Shown here piece after piece: positions 4,139 to 12,839 of a stretch of 32,677 bases of DNA (within the stretch, counting starts at the first letter, position 1; every line of letters begins with the position of its first letter). The notes under the pieces are model-generated. The model did not search any database. It was not told the DNA's origin and saw only the letters and a program-made list of their open reading frames with translations. A program made the position numbers and the translations under genes. Source of the stretch: a virus; IMG/VR virus record IMGVR_UViG_3300018083_000090, positions 1 through 32,677 of that record, one strand, 5' to 3'.

Positions 4139-4405
4139 ATGGACGATCAACAGATCAAGGTAGAGAAACGCTACCGTATTTACTATTGGTCGGGTCGCTT
4201 CCAGCAATTTGCTAACCGCCTTGGCATGGAGGGCTCCCCACCACGTGTAAGATGGTCCCCTAGGGCCAATGAGTATCCTGATCACTTTTCTAAGAAAGAA
4301 ATGGAGGATATCCTTCGTTTCTATTCAGATCAGTATCAGATTTTGAAGGTAGAGACTACATATGTAGCAGTAGGAGTGAGTGACGATGAAGGAAGTGATG
4401 GATGA
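4139..4405 (+). CDS. Hypothetical protein, 88 aa
   Basis: The ATG at 4139 has AAGGGCGAG upstream; a longer in-frame extension to 3995 runs into the structured RNA and is not credible. The protein (MDDQQIKVEKRYRIYYWSG...) is aromatic and basic in its first half and ends in an acidic tail (SDDEGSDG). No family or metal motif is recognised. Its stop overlaps the cyclotransferase-like gene, so it may be the first gene of the amide-modification block. Confidence 0.6.
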   Translation: MDDQQIKVEKRYRIYYWSGRFQQFANRLGMEGSPPRVRWSPRANEYPDHFSKKEMEDILRFYSDQYQILKVETTYVAVGVSDDEGSDG

Positions 4406-4757
4406 GTTTGTTTTTGTCTACGGAACTCTAAAGAAAGGTAAGAGCGCACATAAATTCCTAAAAAATGCTGAATTTCTTGGTCCGGGTGTTGTTAAAGGGA
4501 CCATGTATGGTCATGGAATGGTTCCATATCCTATGATCAAGCTTTCAGGTGAAAAAACAGTCCAAGGTGAGCTTTATGCTGTCACTAAGGACATGCTTGA
4601 GAGTATGGATCGGTATGAAGGGCACCCACACCACTATAAGAGAATTGAAGTAGGTGTTTGGGAGCCTGATGATCCTATTTCTAATGCAAAGGCTTGGGTC
4701 TACGAGTATCAAGGCTCTGTCGAAGGGCTTGATGTAATCAGTGAAGGAGTATTCTGA
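4386..4757 (+). CDS. Gamma-glutamylcyclotransferase-like (AIG2/GGCT) protein
   Basis: The 123-aa product carries the signature of the AIG2/BtrG cyclotransferase fold: YGTLKKG at residues 12-18 (substrate and oxyanion loop) and DRYEGHPHHYKR near 75-86, where Glu78 in the RYEG motif is the expected catalytic acid. Family members release gamma-glutamyl groups as 5-oxoproline or remove gamma-glutamyl protecting groups. The ATG at 4386 is chosen because GGAG lies nine bases upstream; GTG 4380 and ATG 4398 are alternatives. The stop overlaps the next start as TGATG. Together with the amidoligases, ATP-grasp and amidotransferase downstream, it probably acts on a gamma-glutamyl-type amide made by that system. 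The in-block role is inferred. Confidence 0.85.
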   Translation: MKEVMDEFVFVYGTLKKGKSAHKFLKNAEFLGPGVVKGTMYGHGMVPYPMIKLSGEKTVQGELYAVTKDMLESMDRYEGHPHHYKRIEVGVWEPDDPISNAKAWVYEYQGSVEGLDVISEGVF

Positions 4758-4891
4758 TGGGACGCAAGGTTATTCACACGGGCTCTGGTCTTAAGGGTAC
4801 AGTGACTAAGCAAGATGGAGCATACTCCTGGGTCCTCTTGGAGGATGGGAGTGAAGTCTACATCTATTCTGGCGAACTAATGGACCAATAG
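4757..4891 (+). CDS. Small beta-barrel-like protein, 44 aa
   Basis: The start overlaps the previous stop (TGATG) and has GAAGGAG upstream. The sequence (MGRKVIHTGSGLKGTVTKQD, ending GSEVYIYSGELMDQ) has the spacing of a small SH3/KOW-like barrel: GxxGxV, a Trp-Val-Leu-Leu strand, then DGSEVYIYSGEL. No specific family is recognised. The coupling on both sides suggests it belongs to the same operon. Confidence 0.65.
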   Translation: MGRKVIHTGSGLKGTVTKQDGAYSWVLLEDGSEVYIYSGELMDQ

Positions 4892-4900
4892 GAGTCAAGT

Positions 4901-5809
4901 ATGCGTATCGATATCAAAGGTACTCTGGATGTTGTTGAAGTATTCGCCGATCATTCACTCGACAAGAAACCTAAGACAGGCACACATACTACAGTAGCTG
5001 TTATGTCTGATAAGACACACATTGCTTATCAGTGTCACGGCTGTCAGGCCTGTCTAGGTGAGATGTTTAGTGGTGTGTATTACACTACTACAGGATATAC
5101 GACAAGGAAACCTACTGCTATCTACTCAAGTCTCTGGAAGAGACCTGATCAGACCTACGAGGATGCGCTAGCCTACTGGAAGTTCATGTTGAACCCTAGG
5201 TGGAGTCCATATCGTAGTGTCTTGAAGGATTCGGAGATCATCTATCATGAAGAGAAGCCTATTGCATATGTACTGCGGGATATGGATACGTCTCCGCAGA
5301 CAGTCGCAAACCTGTGCTTCGCAATGCGGATGCCCTATGCGCAAGATGGATACTTGCGTATGTTTACAGCACTACGAGAGGCAGGTTTCACTAATGCGGA
5401 GTCGTCTTTCGTCACAGCTAATGCGAGACTAACGCCTAAAGGTTCTATTGGATTCCCTTACATCGGGGACTATCCTTTCGATACCTGCTGGGCAAATATG
5501 TCTTGGAGCGCTTGGAAAGAGGGTAAGCCAAAGACTAATGGTAAACTTATCTCAGAAGGTAATGGGGAGTATCGCCCCTGCAATGTTATCTGGAGTGTCG
5601 CGAAGGTTCCAGGTGCATCTGATAACTATGGAGTCAGTGGACGTAAGCCTACTATCATTCAGAAGCTACTGAGTGGTAAGTTTGAATACAAGGGCAGCTT
5701 CAAGAAGAACTTCAATAGCATCAGCAGCACTGTGCCTCTTGGTGCTGTGGAGTTCGACAAGGCTGTCACAATCCTCCGGGATAACAAAGCAGATTGGCAG
5801 GTAGGCTAA
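4901..5809 (+). CDS. Unknown protein of the amide-modification operon, 302 aa
   Basis: The ATG at 4901 follows TAGGAGT. The protein has an N-terminal beta-rich part with a cysteine cluster (CHGCQAC at about 45-51), an aromatic-rich middle (YEDALAYWKFMLNPRWSPYR) and a conserved-looking segment (GFPYIGDYPFDTCW). The CxxCxxC may bind metal or be structural. No transmembrane segment is visible. I do not recognise the family. Its place between the cyclotransferase-like and amidotransferase genes, with a start-stop overlap to the next gene, suggests a dedicated function in the pathway, such as substrate supply or carrier, which is inference. Confidence 0.75.
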   Translation: MRIDIKGTLDVVEVFADHSLDKKPKTGTHTTVAVMSDKTHIAYQCHGCQACLGEMFSGVYYTTTGYTTRKPTAIYSSLWKRPDQTYEDALAYWKFMLNPRWSPYRSVLKDSEIIYHEEKPIAYVLRDMDTSPQTVANLCFAMRMPYAQDGYLRMFTALREAGFTNAESSFVTANARLTPKGSIGFPYIGDYPFDTCWANMSWSAWKEGKPKTNGKLISEGNGEYRPCNVIWSVAKVPGASDNYGVSGRKPTIIQKLLSGKFEYKGSFKKNFNSISSTVPLGAVEFDKAVTILRDNKADWQVG

Positions 5810-5925
5810 TGGCAACAGGACCTAAGCCCAAACGAGAGACTAAGAAGAAAGCTAAGGGCTATCGCAAGCATGTCAGGGAGAAGGCTTGGCGCGAGCGCAA
5901 GCGTCTGGAAAGGTTGGGCAGATAA
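5809..5925 (+). CDS. Basic 38-aa peptide
   Basis: The start overlaps the previous stop and the stop overlaps the amidotransferase start (TAATG on both sides). The peptide (MATGPKPKRETKKKAKGYRK, ending ERKRLERLGR) is more than 40 percent Lys and Arg and likely helical. It could bind nucleic acid, or be the protein substrate or leader of the surrounding ligases. Neither can be shown from sequence. Confidence 0.6.
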   Translation: MATGPKPKRETKKKAKGYRKHVREKAWRERKRLERLGR

Positions 5926-7139
5926 TGTGTGGACTCTTTGGCGTTTACGCTGGCTCAACTCTCTCTAAGATGGAGATTGATGCCTTTGTGGAGCTAGGCT
6001 TTGTTAGTGGTACACGTGGCCTGGACTCCACAGGTGTGCTCAAGTGCCATCGTAAAGGCCACAACAAGTTCAGCATTACAAGTGAGAAAGATGTAGGTAA
6101 TCCTATGTCTTTCTTGTCTCGCTATACTACTCAATCCTTCATGCGAGATAAGAGCCCATTGATGCTAATGGGTCATGCTCGATGGGCTACAATTGGTGAT
6201 GTCAATAGAGGCAATGCTCAGCCTATCCATGAAGGCAATATCCTCGGCTGTCACAATGGTACTATCGATTACTATTCTCCCAAGAACAAGGAAGACCTCA
6301 AACATACAACAGATAGCCGCAATCTGTTCAAGACTATCAACAAGGAAGGTATTGTTAAAGCACTAAGCAAGACTAGTGTAGGTGCTTATGCATTGACCTT
6401 TGTAGATACTCATCAACGCACTCTCAACTTCATCCGCAACAGTGAGAGAGAACTCTGGCTAGTCAAGAGCAAGGCTCAGAGCCTGTTCTGGGCTAGTGAG
6501 AGGCGTATCCTAGAGTTCATGATGGAAGAGCTAGGTGGTAAGGATCGCTATGATCTCCCACATCTCATCTCAAAGAATTCTCTTCACTCCGTTATCTTAG
6601 GTGATGGTATTGGAGATATCAAAATTCAATACCTCGACAGTGATATCACTAAGGAGTACAACAAGACCTTCTATCCAAGCGCTAGTAAGCCTTGGGAAAA
6701 GAATGGTACCTCTGTTCCTCTTCTCACGTCACAGGCTCCGCCTATCTCAGGTCTCTTCTGTACAGCTTGCTGCTGGAACTTCAACCAATGCAAGTGTGCT
6801 AAAGGTGTGAAGAAAAGCTACATTAGGCCTGATCCTAAGCTGATCTCTGCTAATCTTATGTACTACACACCAGAGAATGCTAAGACAGTGGTGCCACATG
6901 ATGTGGAGAAGTACATCGGCTATGAGAGAAGGAACCTAGCACTATCTGTTGCTAAGGCACTCCTTGATGAGGGTTGCTCTGGGTGTAACAACAAGTTCGG
7001 TATCGAGAACAAGGTCTATTGGTTCTCCGAGAAGGAGTATGTCTGTAGAGACTGCAAGGAGACCAATGAGGTCATACAAGCTGACCTTAAGAAGGTCAAG
7101 ATCTATGGTAGTGGTGTATATGTGGAGCGAGTGAACTAA
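5925..7139 (+). CDS. Class II (Ntn-type) glutamine amidotransferase
   Basis: The start is set at 5925 because it yields MCGLFGVY: Cys2 becomes the N-terminal nucleophile after Met removal, as the mechanism requires; an upstream in-frame extension would bury it. Further family motifs are RGLDSTG (31-37), GHARWAT (83-89) and HNGT (110-113), the glutamine-binding set also found in GlmS, PurF and AsnB. The enzyme hydrolyses glutamine to supply ammonia. The 404-aa protein has no synthetase or isomerase domain; its C-terminal half instead has cysteine knuckles (CTACCWNFNQCKC, and a CxxC pair with a later CRDC) likely to bind zinc. Ammonia is therefore probably passed to a partner, most likely an amidoligase encoded next to it. 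The stop overlaps the next start. Confidence 0.9.
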   Translation: MCGLFGVYAGSTLSKMEIDAFVELGFVSGTRGLDSTGVLKCHRKGHNKFSITSEKDVGNPMSFLSRYTTQSFMRDKSPLMLMGHARWATIGDVNRGNAQPIHEGNILGCHNGTIDYYSPKNKEDLKHTTDSRNLFKTINKEGIVKALSKTSVGAYALTFVDTHQRTLNFIRNSERELWLVKSKAQSLFWASERRILEFMMEELGGKDRYDLPHLISKNSLHSVILGDGIGDIKIQYLDSDITKEYNKTFYPSASKPWEKNGTSVPLLTSQAPPISGLFCTACCWNFNQCKCAKGVKKSYIRPDPKLISANLMYYTPENAKTVVPHDVEKYIGYERRNLALSVAKALLDEGCSGCNNKFGIENKVYWFSEKEYVCRDCKETNEVIQADLKKVKIYGSGVYVERVN

Positions 7140-7879
7140 TGTCGTTCAAAGTAGGCGGTGATCCTGAGTTCTTTATCCTGAGAGATGGTACACCTGTCTC
7201 TGCACATGATCTTCTTCCAGGCTCTAAGGAAGAGCCTTATCCATTGGAGCATGGCGATGTCCAAGTTGACGGTATGGCAGGTGAAGTCAACATTCGGCCA
7301 TCTTCCAGTGCAGAAGAGTTTGAGTATAACGTCAGGGCCGTATTCTCCGATGTTCGTAAGATGCTTCCAAAGCACTTTGACATCGCATTCAAACCTTCGG
7401 TGGAGTTCCTGGATTCGACCTTGGCTACAGTACCTGATTCTCAGAAGGAACTCGGGTGCTCCCCGGATTTCAATGCCTATAGCGGACTGATGAATGAGAG
7501 TCCTATGCTTGAGCTTAAGAAAGTGCCTAATCTTCGCTCAGCAGGTGGTCATATCTGTGTAGGCTGGGGTGAGAACTTCGACAAGAAGGATGCAAGCCAT
7601 GTCCTCGACTGTGAGAGTTTCATTAAACACATCGACCCTATATACAGAAGCTTCTCCACCCTATGGGATCGCGATCAGAGGAGAGCTATGCTTTACGGTA
7701 GACCTGGCGCTTACAGAGCGACAGCTTTTGGAGTTGAATACCGAACTCCTAGCAACGCTTGGGTCGCTCATCCGAAAATGTACCCATTCATATTCGCACT
7801 AGCAGAGAACACCATGCTCCACATGATGGGGGAGCCCGGTAAGGAACTAACATTCAAGAGTGAGTGGATCGATGGCTAA
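7139..7879 (+). CDS. phiEco32-type amidoligase (COOH-NH2 ligase, type 2)
   Basis: The 246-aa protein shows the pattern of the phage branch of glutamine-synthetase-like amidoligases: GGDPEFFI at residues 6-13, HGDVQVDGMAGEVNIRP at 38-54, a GGHICVGWG segment (H in a beta strand) and a late EYRTPS motif. The acidic and His residues in these motifs match the metal/ATP-binding positions of the fold. Such enzymes join a carboxyl group to an amine or ammonia using ATP. The ATG overlaps the amidotransferase stop, and its own end overlaps the next start by eight bases. Substrate is unknown; the neighbouring amidotransferase suggests ammonia or an amine derived from it. Confidence 0.85.
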   Translation: MSFKVGGDPEFFILRDGTPVSAHDLLPGSKEEPYPLEHGDVQVDGMAGEVNIRPSSSAEEFEYNVRAVFSDVRKMLPKHFDIAFKPSVEFLDSTLATVPDSQKELGCSPDFNAYSGLMNESPMLELKKVPNLRSAGGHICVGWGENFDKKDASHVLDCESFIKHIDPIYRSFSTLWDRDQRRAMLYGRPGAYRATAFGVEYRTPSNAWVAHPKMYPFIFALAENTMLHMMGEPGKELTFKSEWIDG

Positions 7880-8492
7880 GCCATACTTTGCAAGAGAGGA
7901 TGCCATCAGGCGTCTCCATGATACCATCTGTATGTACTATGGCCTTCCATACTACGTCAACATGGAAGGTCAGATTGACCAGTACAAGGTCAACATCTAT
8001 CCTCTGAGTTACTTCTATGGACCTAGGAGTGGCAGAGAGAAGCCTAAGACTGTTGACTATACAGATGAAAAATTTGACTACAAACAATTCCCTCTCGGCT
8101 ATGGCTACTCAAAGACTCATGGTGGATTGTACTTCTCTCGTATCCCTGATCGTAAACAACAGCAGGGATTGAACTATAGTACGCTGCGGATCAATGGGCA
8201 AGTTGCGCAGGGTCCCTCGACTATGCTTACTGAAGTTATGGAGAACTGTATCCTTGGTAGGTACCAACCATTAGAGCAGGCCATTAGTCTGGTTAAAAGC
8301 GGCTCAACTGGTACAGTACCTTTCCATAGACGTATGGCAGTATCCATGATTGATCGTGGACTTATCTCTCTCAAGTATCGACTCCGCTCAGTTGGTATCC
8401 TTGATGGTAAGAAGTCCTTCAAACTGCTGGATAACAGGGACAAGGAGTTCCTGCGTAATGTGATCTCGAAAGAGGGAGTTTCTGTTTCATGA
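7872..8492 (+). CDS. Unknown protein between the two amidoligases, 206 aa
   Basis: The ATG at 7872 overlaps the upstream stop as ATGGCTAA; a longer GTG start at 7860 is possible. The protein has a tyrosine-rich N-terminal half (ICMYYGLPYYVNMEG, YPLSYFYGP), a basic centre and a helical C-terminus (LDNRDKEFLRNVISKEG). No membrane span, metal cluster or known nucleotide motif is visible. Strict coupling on both sides argues for a stoichiometric role with the ligases, for example as a scaffold or substrate, but this is inference. Confidence 0.75.
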   Translation: MAKPYFAREDAIRRLHDTICMYYGLPYYVNMEGQIDQYKVNIYPLSYFYGPRSGREKPKTVDYTDEKFDYKQFPLGYGYSKTHGGLYFSRIPDRKQQQGLNYSTLRINGQVAQGPSTMLTEVMENCILGRYQPLEQAISLVKSGSTGTVPFHRRMAVSMIDRGLISLKYRLRSVGILDGKKSFKLLDNRDKEFLRNVISKEGVSVS

Positions 8493-9454
8493 AGTTGAGT
8501 CAGTTCGGTCTTCATCGCAACAAGAGAGGCGACATTGGCATTGAGATCGAGGTCGAGGGGGAGGAGCAACTTACGCCCATCGAGAGTGATTGGTGGGCCT
8601 CTAAGAAAGAGGACTCCCTACGCTTCTACGGTATGGAGTATGTCACCACAAGGCCACTTAACTCTGGTCAAGAGGTCAGGGATGCGGTTGACTACATCTG
8701 TAAAATTATCAACAAGAAAAAGATTGTCAAGGATACTAACCGCACGAGTATCCACACGCATCATAACATGACCAAGAGAGACATCAGACATGTCTTGAAT
8801 GGTGTCTGTGTCTTCTGGATTGTGGAGAATGTTCTTGCCAGATACTGTGGTGAGGATAGAGAGAGCAATCTCTTCTGCATGAGGCTCAAGGATGCAGAGG
8901 CTGTGCTTGATGAGACAATCAAGCAGCTAGATCAACGTCCTCCTCTAATGATGTTTGGTAAAGGTGGAGATACTGTACGCTACGCAGGTCTCAACCTAGG
9001 CGCACTCAGGAACTATGGTTCCTTGGAAGTACGCCTTAAGCAAGGTACTACTGATCCAGAGGAGATCATTGAATGGGCTGAAGCTATGCATGAACTCTTC
9101 TGTCTCGGTGAGTCTTGGAAAGATCCTTCAGAGTTTTTTGATTGGTATGTGTACAATGGTTCTAAGAAATTACTTGAGCGAATTTTTGCAGAAAAATTTG
9201 CCACCAAACTGAGGGATCGAGTTCCCAACTACAAAAACCTGATGGAGGAGAATGCGATCCTTGTGAGCGAGCTAGCCTACGCTAAAGACTGGGACGAATG
9301 GGTAGCTCAACTAGCTAAGGGTGACTATGCCAAGCCTATGAAGACCGACTACAATTACAACCATGCTTATCAGCCAATCACAACATCACAGATACAAGCA
9401 GGAATACCTATCACTTTCACAACCTCCCACACAGGAACAGCAAGCAATGTCTAA
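8489..9454 (+). CDS. Amidoligase, Amidoligase_2 type
   Basis: The 321-aa protein opens with GIEIEVEG (Glu19, Glu21 and Glu23), the acidic strand that defines the putative amidoligase family of the glutamine-synthetase fold. It continues with EDSLRFYGMEYVTTRPL, then TSIHTHHNM (paired His on a strand), and later GSLEVRLKQGTTD with the ExR motif. It is distinct from the amidoligase 600 bp upstream, so the phage has two divergent ligases in one operon. The start overlaps the previous stop by four bases (ATGA). The last about 60 residues are a polar, Thr-rich tail. The enzyme is expected to activate a carboxylate with ATP and form an amide or peptide-like bond. Confidence 0.85.
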   Translation: MKLSQFGLHRNKRGDIGIEIEVEGEEQLTPIESDWWASKKEDSLRFYGMEYVTTRPLNSGQEVRDAVDYICKIINKKKIVKDTNRTSIHTHHNMTKRDIRHVLNGVCVFWIVENVLARYCGEDRESNLFCMRLKDAEAVLDETIKQLDQRPPLMMFGKGGDTVRYAGLNLGALRNYGSLEVRLKQGTTDPEEIIEWAEAMHELFCLGESWKDPSEFFDWYVYNGSKKLLERIFAEKFATKLRDRVPNYKNLMEENAILVSELAYAKDWDEWVAQLAKGDYAKPMKTDYNYNHAYQPITTSQIQAGIPITFTTSHTGTASNV

Positions 9455-10274
9455 GGTACACATCCTCCTCTACGACAAGAACGACAGCGGTGGTAATGCT
9501 CTTAAGGCTAAGATGGGTCTTAAGCGTATTCTTAAGACAGGATCGGAGTACCAAGCTAGCCCGGATAAGGTCATCATTAACTGGGGTAACTCCCGGATGC
9601 TATCTCACTGCAAAGGTAGCCAGTTTATTAACCATCCAGATGCTGTTTCTATCTCTGTTGATAAGATCAAGGCTTTTAAGGCTATGGAGGGTAAGTGTAG
9701 ACATGTACCTTTTACCACTAATAGACTGGAGGCCCTTAAGTGGCTCGGTATTGGCCATAAGGTGGTCTGTAGGGACGTAGTTAATGGGTCAGAGGGCAGT
9801 GGTATCCGTATAATCGAAGCTACGGCCCCTAATTTGACCGTACAGAGCGATCCTGGGTTCATGGCTACCCTCATGGCCTGGTTTACAAGTCCCTCTGCAG
9901 AGTCAAATTTGGGACTCCTAGGGCATAGTCCCCTTTACACCCAGTTTGTACCCTTCAAGAAGGAGTACAGGGTCCATGTCGTTAACGGCAAGGCTGTTAA
10001 TGTACGACGGAAGGTAACTAGTGTAGACCAGCCTACTGTAGTGGGGGACTTTAAGAATGTCACTATTTACCATCAAGACATAGTAGATCAGGCAGTAAAG
10101 GCGACAAAGGCTGTAGGCCTGGACTTCGCTGGAGTAGATGTCCTTTGGGACGGTGCTAAGGCCTGGGTGCTGGAGACGAATACTGCTCCATCAATCGGAG
10201 GTACCTTAACCGTGCAAGGATATGCTGACGAGCTTAAGAAAATGATCAAGGAAAAGTACAACATTACCTGCTGA
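9447..10274 (+). CDS. ATP-grasp ligase (RimK-like)
   Basis: The ATG at 9447 is preceded by AGGAAC and overlaps the amidoligase stop by eight bases. Motifs typical of ATP-grasp enzymes appear in order over 275 aa: a Lys-containing beta strand (KVVCRDVVNGSEGSGI), the YTQFVPFKKEYRVHVVNGK segment, and the metal site FAGVDVLWDG with WVLETNTAPSIGG, where Glu and Asn bind Mg-ATP. The enzyme forms an acyl-phosphate and then an amide with an amine. The closest fold relatives add amino acids such as glutamate to peptide ends. It is the last gene of the amide-modification block, directly before a terminator. Confidence 0.9.
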   Translation: MSKVHILLYDKNDSGGNALKAKMGLKRILKTGSEYQASPDKVIINWGNSRMLSHCKGSQFINHPDAVSISVDKIKAFKAMEGKCRHVPFTTNRLEALKWLGIGHKVVCRDVVNGSEGSGIRIIEATAPNLTVQSDPGFMATLMAWFTSPSAESNLGLLGHSPLYTQFVPFKKEYRVHVVNGKAVNVRRKVTSVDQPTVVGDFKNVTIYHQDIVDQAVKATKAVGLDFAGVDVLWDGAKAWVLETNTAPSIGGTLTVQGYADELKKMIKEKYNITC

Positions 10275-10343: not shown

Positions 10344-10553
10344 ATGGAACAAATACAAGTACCTAAAGACTTTGAAACCAAGTACGACAAGCACGAACAG
10401 AAGACTATGATTAGAACTAAGTGCTCTGTCTGCAAGCAATGTTGGAAGTATATTGGCAATGCTACATGCATCTATGGAGGCCCCTATAAGGGGTACGATA
10501 AAGTCCAAGCTAGTGAAACAGATCCAGTGTCCGAAGTGCCTGGACAGGGGTAG
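10344..10553 (+). CDS. Small zinc-finger-like protein, 69 aa
   Basis: The ATG at 10344 has AAGGTAAGG upstream. The first half is charged (MEQIQVPKDFETKYDKHEQK), then RTKCSVCKQCWKYIGNATC provides four cysteines that could bind zinc. The last third overlaps the primase-helicase start in another frame. It may act with the primase, whose own zinc motif lies just downstream, but no family is recognised. Confidence 0.55.
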   Translation: MEQIQVPKDFETKYDKHEQKTMIRTKCSVCKQCWKYIGNATCIYGGPYKGYDKVQASETDPVSEVPGQG

Positions 10554-12102
10554 AGATAACCTAGCTATTTATGATGATGGGCATGGGTATTGCTTCTCAT
10601 GCTCTCTTTATATAGATACATATGCTCTTTCTTTATATAGTATAGATATAGATACTACAGTAACTACTAACTTAGGAAACTCCTTTAGACAAATGAATGA
10701 TAAAGAATCCTATCAATACTTAGAACATAGAGGTATCTCCAGGCATACTATGGAGCACTACAAGGTGCTTACTAAGGTGCTTGCAGATGGTACTCCAGAT
10801 GAGGTAGGGCTACCATATGGGACATATACCACGCTTAGGGGCTATTCTGATAGGTCTTTTAGAACTGTCGGTGATGGCGCTAATGTACTACTGTTTGGCC
10901 AAGACTGTTTTAATTCTGGATCTAGTCGTGCGATCACTGTAACCGAAGGAGCCTTCGATGCAATGTCCGTATACGAGGCCTTGGGGCGCAGGTACCCAGC
11001 TGTCTCGGTTAGAAGTGCTTCTTCAGCCAGAGGTGATTGTGAGAAAGCATATCACTATCTCAACTCCTTCGAAGCAATATACCTATGCTTTGACAATGAC
11101 AGAGCTGGCATGGACGCAGCTAGAGATGTGGCAGCCCTCTTTGATGTCAACAAAGTCTACCATGTCAAGATCGACAAGTACAAAGACGCCAACGAACTGC
11201 TTCAAGCAGATGGTGAAGAAGCTCTAAAGAGGATCTGGTACAATGCTAAGCGGTATGAGCCGAAGGGTATCATCTCCACATACGAAGCTATCGAAGGTAT
11301 CCTCAAAGGCGAAGACAAGCAAGCTATTGCATCCTACCCTTTTCCGACACTGGAATCTATGGCTTATGGCATTAGGACAGGCGAGTTGGTCCTCTTCACA
11401 GCGCTTGAAAAAGTGGGCAAGACTGAAGCGCTAAGAGCTATTGAGTATCACCTACTCAAGACAACTGATCACAACGTAGGTGTCATCCACCTAGAAGAGA
11501 AGGAACGCCGCAGTGTTCAAGGTCTTATTGGCTATGAGTTGGGGGTTCCAGCTCATCTCCCTGACAATGGCACTTCTGCCGATGAGCAGATCATGGCGTA
11601 CAAATCTCTTACGAAGCGTGATGGTCGTGTTCATTTCTATACTCACTTTGGCTCTGACGACCCTCGTAATATCCTTGATGCCATAAGGTACATGGTAAAG
11701 GTGGCTCACTGTAAGTTTGTATTTCTAGACCATATCACTATGCTTGTCACTGGCTTCGAGGAAGATGACGAAAGGAAGCGTCTTGACTACATCTCGACAA
11801 GACTTGCGATGCTCACAAGAGAGCTCGACTTCTGCATGTTCCTTGTCTCCCATGTTAACGACCAGGGACAAACAAGAGGTAGCAGAAATATCGGCAAGGT
11901 TGCAGATCTGCTCATCCACCTTGATAGGGATATTGAGTCAGCCGACATTAAGTCCAGGAACACTACTAGACTTACGTGCCGAGGTAATCGCTTTGCAAGT
12001 ATTACTGGACCGGCTGGACTACTTCACTTCGATCCTAAGACCTTCCGTATCTCAGAAGTAGAAGGGACGCCAGATGCCAGTGAACAAGTGCTCCAATCCT
12101 AA
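10459..12102 (+). CDS. DNA primase-helicase (T7 gp4-like)
   Basis: A fused primase and replicative helicase. The N-terminal zinc domain has CPKC at 24-27 and CFSC at 45-48. The TOPRIM catalytic domain shows VTEGAFDAMSVYEAL (Glu), CFDNDRAGMDAAR (DxD-type metal site) and KDANELL. The C-terminal RecA/DnaB helicase core has Walker A ALEKVGKTEAL, Walker B KFVFLDHITML, and the SHVNDQGQTRGSRNIGKVAD motif preceding an arginine-rich end. Length (about 547 aa) fits gp4-like proteins. The start is uncertain because the gene begins inside the previous one: ATG 10459 has GGAAG eleven bases upstream, and GTG 10513 is an alternative. It unwinds the fork and primes lagging-strand synthesis for the polymerase at 13086. 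Confidence 0.93.
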   Translation: MLHASMEAPIRGTIKSKLVKQIQCPKCLDRGRDNLAIYDDGHGYCFSCSLYIDTYALSLYSIDIDTTVTTNLGNSFRQMNDKESYQYLEHRGISRHTMEHYKVLTKVLADGTPDEVGLPYGTYTTLRGYSDRSFRTVGDGANVLLFGQDCFNSGSSRAITVTEGAFDAMSVYEALGRRYPAVSVRSASSARGDCEKAYHYLNSFEAIYLCFDNDRAGMDAARDVAALFDVNKVYHVKIDKYKDANELLQADGEEALKRIWYNAKRYEPKGIISTYEAIEGILKGEDKQAIASYPFPTLESMAYGIRTGELVLFTALEKVGKTEALRAIEYHLLKTTDHNVGVIHLEEKERRSVQGLIGYELGVPAHLPDNGTSADEQIMAYKSLTKRDGRVHFYTHFGSDDPRNILDAIRYMVKVAHCKFVFLDHITMLVTGFEEDDERKRLDYISTRLAMLTRELDFCMFLVSHVNDQGQTRGSRNIGKVADLLIHLDRDIESADIKSRNTTRLTCRGNRFASITGPAGLLHFDPKTFRISEVEGTPDASEQVLQS

Positions 12103-12226
12103 TTGTCCAGGTTTTGGTAAGGACATGATTGGTAACCTATGTTCCTATTGCTACTGTAAGCAATGTATGAAAGATAAGGAATACGGTGGTAAGTGCCATG
12201 ACTGTCCCAAGTTACAAGCATCTTAA
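12074..12226 (+). CDS. Cysteine-rich 50-aa protein
   Basis: The ATG at 12074 lies inside the primase-helicase end with GAAGGGAC upstream. The product contains nine cysteines arranged as CSNPNC, CSYCYCKQC and CHDC, able to bind two zinc ions. It overlaps both the preceding and following genes. No family is recognised. The dense cysteine pattern is unlikely to arise as a chance shadow frame. Confidence 0.65.
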   Translation: MPVNKCSNPNCPGFGKDMIGNLCSYCYCKQCMKDKEYGGKCHDCPKLQAS

Positions 12227-12839
12227 GTTCTGGAAACATTTCTATCTTAACAGTGATTTAATAGACCTAGGTAGTAAAAACAATACGTTACCCGCTAGAG
12301 ACAAGTGGTTTCAGGCGCTGGAGTTGACCCCCTTCGACAAGGTTAAAGTAGTCTTGCTAGGACAAGACCCGTATCATACGAAAGGGATGGCACATGGACT
12401 GGCTTTCTCGGTACTACCACATAACAAGGGACTTCCTGCTTCCCTTCGGAACATCTTCAAAGAGTATCAGGCAGATCTCGGCTATCCGCAACCGAGGAAT
12501 GGAGACCTACGAACGTGGGCTAGTAGAGGAGTTCTCCTCCTCAACACTATCCTCACGGTGGAAGAGGGTAAGCCTCTATCTCATAAGGGTATTGGCTGGG
12601 AGAAACTAACCTATGAAATCATTAGAGAGCTTGCTACGAAGAGCAAGGTGGTCTTTATCCTTCTGGGCAAACAAGCACAAGAGTACAAAGCGGCATGTGA
12701 TCCATGTCCAGTTGTTGCAGCCGCTCATCCCTCGCCCCTCTCGGCTGCGTCTGGTTTCCACGGATCGAAGATCTTCTCCAAAGCGAATCAGAAGCTGGAA
12801 GAACTAGGCGTCGAGAAAGTTGATTGGAGGTTACCGTGA
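12198..12839 (+). CDS. ung: Uracil-DNA glycosylase, family 1
   Basis: The 213-aa protein has all hallmark motifs: GQDPYH (Asp57 activates water), a segment ending LLLNTILTVEEGKPLSH, and the His loop AAHPSPLSAASGF that pinches the uracil base. Length fits bacterial Ung (about 220 aa). It excises uracil from DNA, starting base-excision repair. The ATG at 12198 lies within the cysteine-rich gene; GTG 12186 is an alternative start. Placement between primase and polymerase suggests it protects newly made phage DNA, and argues against uracil replacing thymine in this genome. The stop overlaps the next start. Confidence 0.96.
   Translation: MTVPSYKHLKFWKHFYLNSDLIDLGSKNNTLPARDKWFQALELTPFDKVKVVLLGQDPYHTKGMAHGLAFSVLPHNKGLPASLRNIFKEYQADLGYPQPRNGDLRTWASRGVLLLNTILTVEEGKPLSHKGIGWEKLTYEIIRELATKSKVVFILLGKQAQEYKAACDPCPVVAAAHPSPLSAASGFHGSKIFSKANQKLEELGVEKVDWRLP

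Follow-up and report, generated by a model that had tools for sequence, protein, structure and literature searches.

The viral record IMGVR_UViG_3300018083_000090 (32,677 bases; hereafter the window) contains, at positions 4386-10274, an operon that is an intact, divergent copy of an already known phage cassette and not a new kind of system. Its seven larger genes, all on the plus strand, encode a candidate gamma-glutamyl(amine) cyclotransferase (GGCT), the protein U302, a class II glutamine amidotransferase (GAT2), a COOH-NH2 ligase (CNL), the protein U210, an Amidoligase_2 enzyme (AMD) and an ATP-grasp ligase (GRASP). The genes were located where a first-pass annotation, made from the sequence alone, had placed them, and the enzyme types it named were borne out by family matches far beyond chance. 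Phages of different families carry this gene set. Its core consists of GAT2, CNL, U210, AMD and GRASP; GGCT lies outside the core and is optional. On balance, we lean towards reading the locus as an early operon that would serve an amide-bond pathway in the cytoplasm, fed by glutamine and glutamate and including the removal of a gamma-glutamyl group.

A seven-gene "peptidoglycan modification cassette" with this enzyme set was described in RIO1-like podoviruses, and phages phiEco32, 7-11, PA11, tf, MR299-2, LUZ24, PaP3 and CW02 were listed as carriers (PMC5498523). The cassette appears again in PMC11945000 (2025), with two ideas about its function, superinfection exclusion and readying of the wall for lysis. 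Like the cassettes of RIO-1/PSA-HP1, phiEco32, LUZ24 and others, the window operon combines a COOH-NH2 (gamma-glutamyl) amidoligase, a second amidoligase and an ATP-grasp ligase with a glutamine amidotransferase and GGCT, and is placed amid early replication genes. It differs in that its proteins are divergent (13-41% identity in alignments of 13 phages, with a long branch on the tree), that the class I amidotransferase-like hydrolase of most close relatives (C26) is absent, and that two small open reading frames (ORFs) are added. A nucleotide search with the operon gave no match in phage records. The first-pass annotation called the operon complete, which is too strong: not every such operon has GGCT, U302 is particular to a lineage, and the class I hydrolase is lacking here. 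The cassette occurs in more than 300 sequenced phage records; among the carriers are coliphages of the phiEco32 type, LUZ24-like Pseudomonas phages and crAss-like phages. What is added here is a count of how often the core is complete, the recognition of U210, for which a confident structural model was obtained, as an obligate member, and the alternation of GGCT and C26.

All five core genes were found in each of the 12 other phages fetched, mostly close upstream of replication genes. Loci in IMG/VR were collected with alignment profiles of CNL and GRASP, the AMD alignment being too variable to serve as a query, and every component was then sought by hidden Markov model (HMM) searches. After removal of duplicates and of loci with short flanks, 83 distinct operons were left, and the core is complete in 82 of them. 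In the sole exception, L059, U210 and AMD were not recognisable; U210 was also not recognisable in contig L160, which falls outside the flank rule. Since the loci were drawn by likeness to two genes, the fraction 82/83 describes the relatives of this operon and not all phages. Among 50,697 phage records, tblastn matches were found in 322 for GAT2, 317 for CNL and 313 for GRASP, with near-identical host make-up. The genes thus do not occur independently of one another in related phages, and the single pathway proposed in the first-pass annotation is supported by the complete core, the similar record counts and the residues described below.

A cellular origin was sought in bacterial assemblies, where twelve loci with a CNL relative were found. 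Nine of them contain the whole core, and one (L178) is a 4.9-kb contig ending before the ATP-grasp gene. In the remaining two the relative stands in other settings, outside the phage cassette. A Deltaproteobacteria metagenome-assembled genome (MAG) contains two COOH-NH2 ligase relatives, one of them adjoining a protein with a GVELEFN motif (L184, 10226-16709), and an Omnitrophota MAG contains one near an FGE-sulfatase-like gene (L181, 3394-4638). These two settings yielded no functional clue.

None of the tested catalytic or family-invariant residues is missing from the window proteins; the invariant ones are expected, from family knowledge, to be catalytic. GAT2 has the features of class II glutamine amidotransferases, namely an N-terminal Cys after removal of Met, Arg, Asn-Gly and Asp. 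The likely start at ATG 5925 would place the nucleophile at Cys2, as had been claimed; this Cys and the glutamine-binding Arg, His-Asn-Gly and Asp residues are invariant in the 13-phage alignment. In profile comparison GAT2 matches the glutaminase domain of GlmS (E 4e-18), and it resembles the glutaminase domains of GlmS and PurF in its Cys2, RWAT, HNG and Asp motifs. Unlike in full GlmS and PurF, a synthase domain (sugar-isomerase or phosphoribosyl) was not matched, and the C-terminal part is instead Cys-rich. CNL scores 18.6 bits with PF14395, below the curated cut-off of 25. However, all 30 columns invariant over 13 phages are kept in it, among them (here and below in window numbering) D8, E10, K30, E49, H138, E200 and R202. 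AMD contains the motifs GIEIEVE and HTH (H89, H91), and its invariant residues are E19, E21, E23, R45, H89, H91, E180 and R182. Those of GRASP are K73, R109, E173, R175, K189, D231, E243 and N245. The nearest solved relatives of GRASP are RimK glutamate ligases of ribosomal protein S6 (profile match to 5zct, E 1e-9), although the relation is distant and GRASP belongs to a multi-ligase operon. For CNL and AMD no solved relative was detectable in PDB.

U210 is low in sequence identity, yet nearly universal in these operons. Its presence in 82 of the 83 makes it an obligate partner of the core set, and its linkage suggests that it is probably a non-catalytic partner or scaffold of the ligases. 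The AlphaFold model is mostly beta (predicted local distance difference test, pLDDT, 93.2; predicted template modelling score 0.87). Comparison of the model with PDB gave no clear match (best Foldseek E-value 0.026), and the matches in BFVD are phage homologues. A likeness of the N-terminal half to ribosomal and SH3/KOW-like barrels was considered and found too weak (best Z 4.6 over 68 residues in a second look). The crAss-like phages cr108_1 (L185) and phi14:2 (L186) have no separate U210 gene, and their AMD proteins have an N-terminal extension of about 190 residues. A fusion of U210 to AMD was rejected in this case, as profile comparison of the extension showed no relation.

GGCT contains the YGTL motif and a putative catalytic Glu78, and human AIG2-like domain 1 (3jub, E 8e-8) is among the closest relatives with a solved structure. 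C26 of the relatives matches Peptidase_C26 (E 1e-16) and the PuuD profile (E 3e-8) and has invariant GxCRG and HPE; it shares the Cys and HPE of PuuD, the gamma-glutamyl-GABA hydrolase of the putrescine pathway, together with the gamma-glutamyl amine logic. Among the operons with enough flank, the window included, 32 contain both GGCT and C26, 13 GGCT only and 38 C26 only. The single operon with neither is that of Cronobacter phage 009, where GGCT is encoded elsewhere in the genome. The Fisher test gives p 0.001 when related phages are treated as independent. On the tree C26 changes at least eight times, and every row without C26 carries GGCT. The four supported independent pairs (eight on the whole tree) all go in the expected direction or are unchanged. 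Outside the operon set, C26 but no GGCT was found in cr108_1 and GGCT but no C26 in phi14:2, both of which carry CNL, GAT2, AMD and the ATP-grasp gene. By these sequence patterns, the PuuD-like C26 can apparently stand in for GGCT. Since one or the other gamma-glutamyl-cleaving enzyme accompanies nearly every operon, the distribution points to a required gamma-glutamyl-removing step; this is suggestive, not proof. The question is thereby narrowed: the five genes including U210 are retained as a complete set, and the step open to exchange is the removal of the gamma-glutamyl group.

In the pathway proposed here, GAT2 would hydrolyse glutamine and supply ammonia, and CNL, AMD and the RimK-like ATP-grasp enzyme would use ATP for carboxylate activation and link an acceptor to ammonia, an amine or glutamate, with U210 as their obligate, probably non-catalytic partner. 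A gamma-glutamyl group would be installed on the way and then removed, here by GGCT as pyroglutamate and in most close relatives by the PuuD-like class I hydrolase. We infer the order of ammonia release, ligation and trimming. The same logic of glutamylation followed by deglutamylation operates in the butirosin and putrescine pathways. A more specific version is tentative: in phages of several families, the ligases may put a protecting gamma-glutamyl group on an amine, GGCT or C26 may remove it, the product may be an amide not described so far, and the ligase machine may include U210 as a subunit that it cannot do without.

Several points weigh against this pathway. The exchange of GGCT and C26 is not significant when relatedness is allowed for (sign test, p about 0.25), although so few independent pairs exist that the sign test could not reach significance. 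The 32 operons with both enzymes, which led us to reject strict exclusivity, are not explained by simple replacement, and L160, a contig of 85 kb, contains neither. As GAT2 has no recognised synthase domain, it is a guess that ammonia is channelled to CNL or AMD, and GAT2 may hydrolyse gamma-glutamyl bonds instead. That CNL and AMD have a GS-like fold is taken from their family annotation. Finally, no measured reaction, product or phenotype of the cassette was found in the open-licence literature, outside which most subscription papers fall.

One alternative, which we regard as possible but not probable, is that the ligases alter the stem peptides of wall precursors, by amidation or extra peptide links, and so block superinfection or prepare lysis; this reading assigns a target to the same enzymes. 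The first-pass annotation rightly held that the product is not defined; however, it did not name this hypothesis, which was already in print. It was proposed in PMC5498523 and PMC11945000, following Iyer 2009 and Hardies 2013; PMC10580990 quotes it and credits the superinfection idea to Iyer 2009. The precursors are indeed cytoplasmic, and the named hosts are mostly Gram-negative, but the papers found report no experiment, and family searches of the operon revealed no peptidoglycan-binding domain. Moreover, the stem peptide contains a gamma-D-glutamyl linkage, whereas the substrates of the known GGACT and PuuD enzymes are L-gamma-glutamyl amines.

It is unlikely that the operon serves to tag a host or virion protein with glutamate or a short peptide, attached by the RimK-like ligase and its partners and trimmed by GGCT or C26. 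The relation of GRASP to the S6 glutamylator and the name of phrog_2599 fit such a role, and related ATP-grasp clades were proposed as modifiers of host proteins (PMC4431377). However, the operon contains no conserved substrate protein or leader peptide, many core-bearing phages lack U302, and the R2K models match GRASP only below their cut-offs (R2K_2, 22.7 vs 26.2 bits; R2K_3, 20.6 vs 26.3).

A purely auxiliary role, in which the genes just raise the turnover of ammonia and amino acids during infection, as was argued for phage ZRK32 (PMC10945688), is very improbable, as two unlike ligases, an ATP-grasp enzyme and U210, all tightly kept, exceed the needs of nitrogen turnover. The growth claim for ZRK32 does not isolate the cassette genes (PMC10945688). 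At the nucleotide level, the ZRK32 record (L012, OP650935.1, 5000-13000) is 84% identical to Pseudomonas phage SCYZ1 across 95% of an 8-kb stretch, which makes the planctomycete host attribution of PMC10945688 doubtful.

The stretch 4386-10274 reads as one tight operon (Table 1). Adjacent genes overlap by 1 base at the GAT2/CNL junction, 8 at CNL/U210, 4 at U210/AMD and 8 at AMD/GRASP. The seeming gaps of 143 and 115 bases flanking U302 are filled by two coupled small ORFs, which had been missed in the first-pass gene list. That annotation took the start-stop overlaps to imply coordinated dosage; the coupling is confirmed, but overlaps are a sign of coupling and not a measurement of dosage. 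No relatives of the two small ORFs were found among the fetched loci.

Table 1. Predicted genes of the operon in the window
Feature	Position	Strand	Evidence
GGCT, GGACT/AIG2-like gamma-glutamyl(amine) cyclotransferase, 123 aa	4386..4757	+	PF06094 (E 3e-24)
Small ORF, 44 aa, start overlapping the GGCT stop (TGATG)	4757..4891	+	sequence
U302, candidate lineage-restricted accessory family	4901..5809	+	iterated HMM
Small, very basic ORF, 38 aa, TAATG overlap at both ends	5809..5925	+	sequence
GAT2, class II glutamine amidotransferase, Ntn glutaminase domain, 404 aa	5925..7139	+	PF13522 (E 1e-13), phrog_4736 (E 7e-53)
CNL, phiEco32-like COOH-NH2 ligase type 2, 246 aa	7139..7879	+	phrog_3815 (E 3e-51)
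U210, 206 aa from ATG 7872	7872..8492	+	phrog_11055 (E 6e-14)
AMD, Amidoligase_2 enzyme, 321 aa	8489..9454	+	PF12224 (E 1e-6, above cut-off), phrog_7469 (E 3e-48)
GRASP, ATP-grasp ligase nearest RimK-type glutamate ligases, 275 aa	9447..10274	+	phrog_2599 (E 1e-54), PF08443 (RimK, above cut-off)

Of the two proteins first described as conserved unknowns, U302 does not fit that name at the level of plain sequence. No family match for U302 was found in Pfam or phrog profile searches, and no phage record was matched by tblastn. Iterated HMM searches, and they only, join it to TC6_056, CVT22 gp67 and proteins of two Vibrio phages and an oyster-associated phage; the relation to TC6_056 is given 99.9% by hhalign. 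In Zobellviridae-like phages these relatives lie upstream of the cassette, usually adjoining C26; the IMG/VR loci contain 45 distinct relatives. U302 is thus best described as a predicted member of a divergent, lineage-restricted accessory family. Proteins of unknown function encoded upstream in LUZ24, phiEco32 and other phages were considered as relatives, but no convincing relation emerged (58% only, for LAh6_112), and profile comparison of U302 with CNL and AMD gave nothing. The structural model (pLDDT 78.5) showed no clear fold match. The best match in a second look, the Pup ligase PafA with its GS-fold (4bjr_B), is weak (Z 3.6, 161 aligned residues, root-mean-square deviation 4.7), and a likeness to PafA may serve only as a lead.

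Scanning of the window found promoter-like sites at the chance level (10 vs 9.3) and slightly more terminator-like sites than expected (8 vs 4.1); neither result is informative. The consensus of the tf-type nick motif does not occur in the window. The LUZ24 early protein gp9, unrelated to the cassette, binds the host gamma-glutamylpolyamine synthetase SpuB/PauA2 in the yeast two-hybrid assay (PMC4635203); as LUZ24 is a cassette-bearing phage, this is possibly a relevant coincidence. The operon is preceded by tRNA-Ile and tRNA-Leu genes and small ORFs, and followed by genes for a primase-helicase (10453-12102), a uracil-DNA glycosylase (12186-12839) and a family A DNA polymerase (PolA). The crAss-like relatives also have a uracil-DNA glycosylase gene beside their cassettes.

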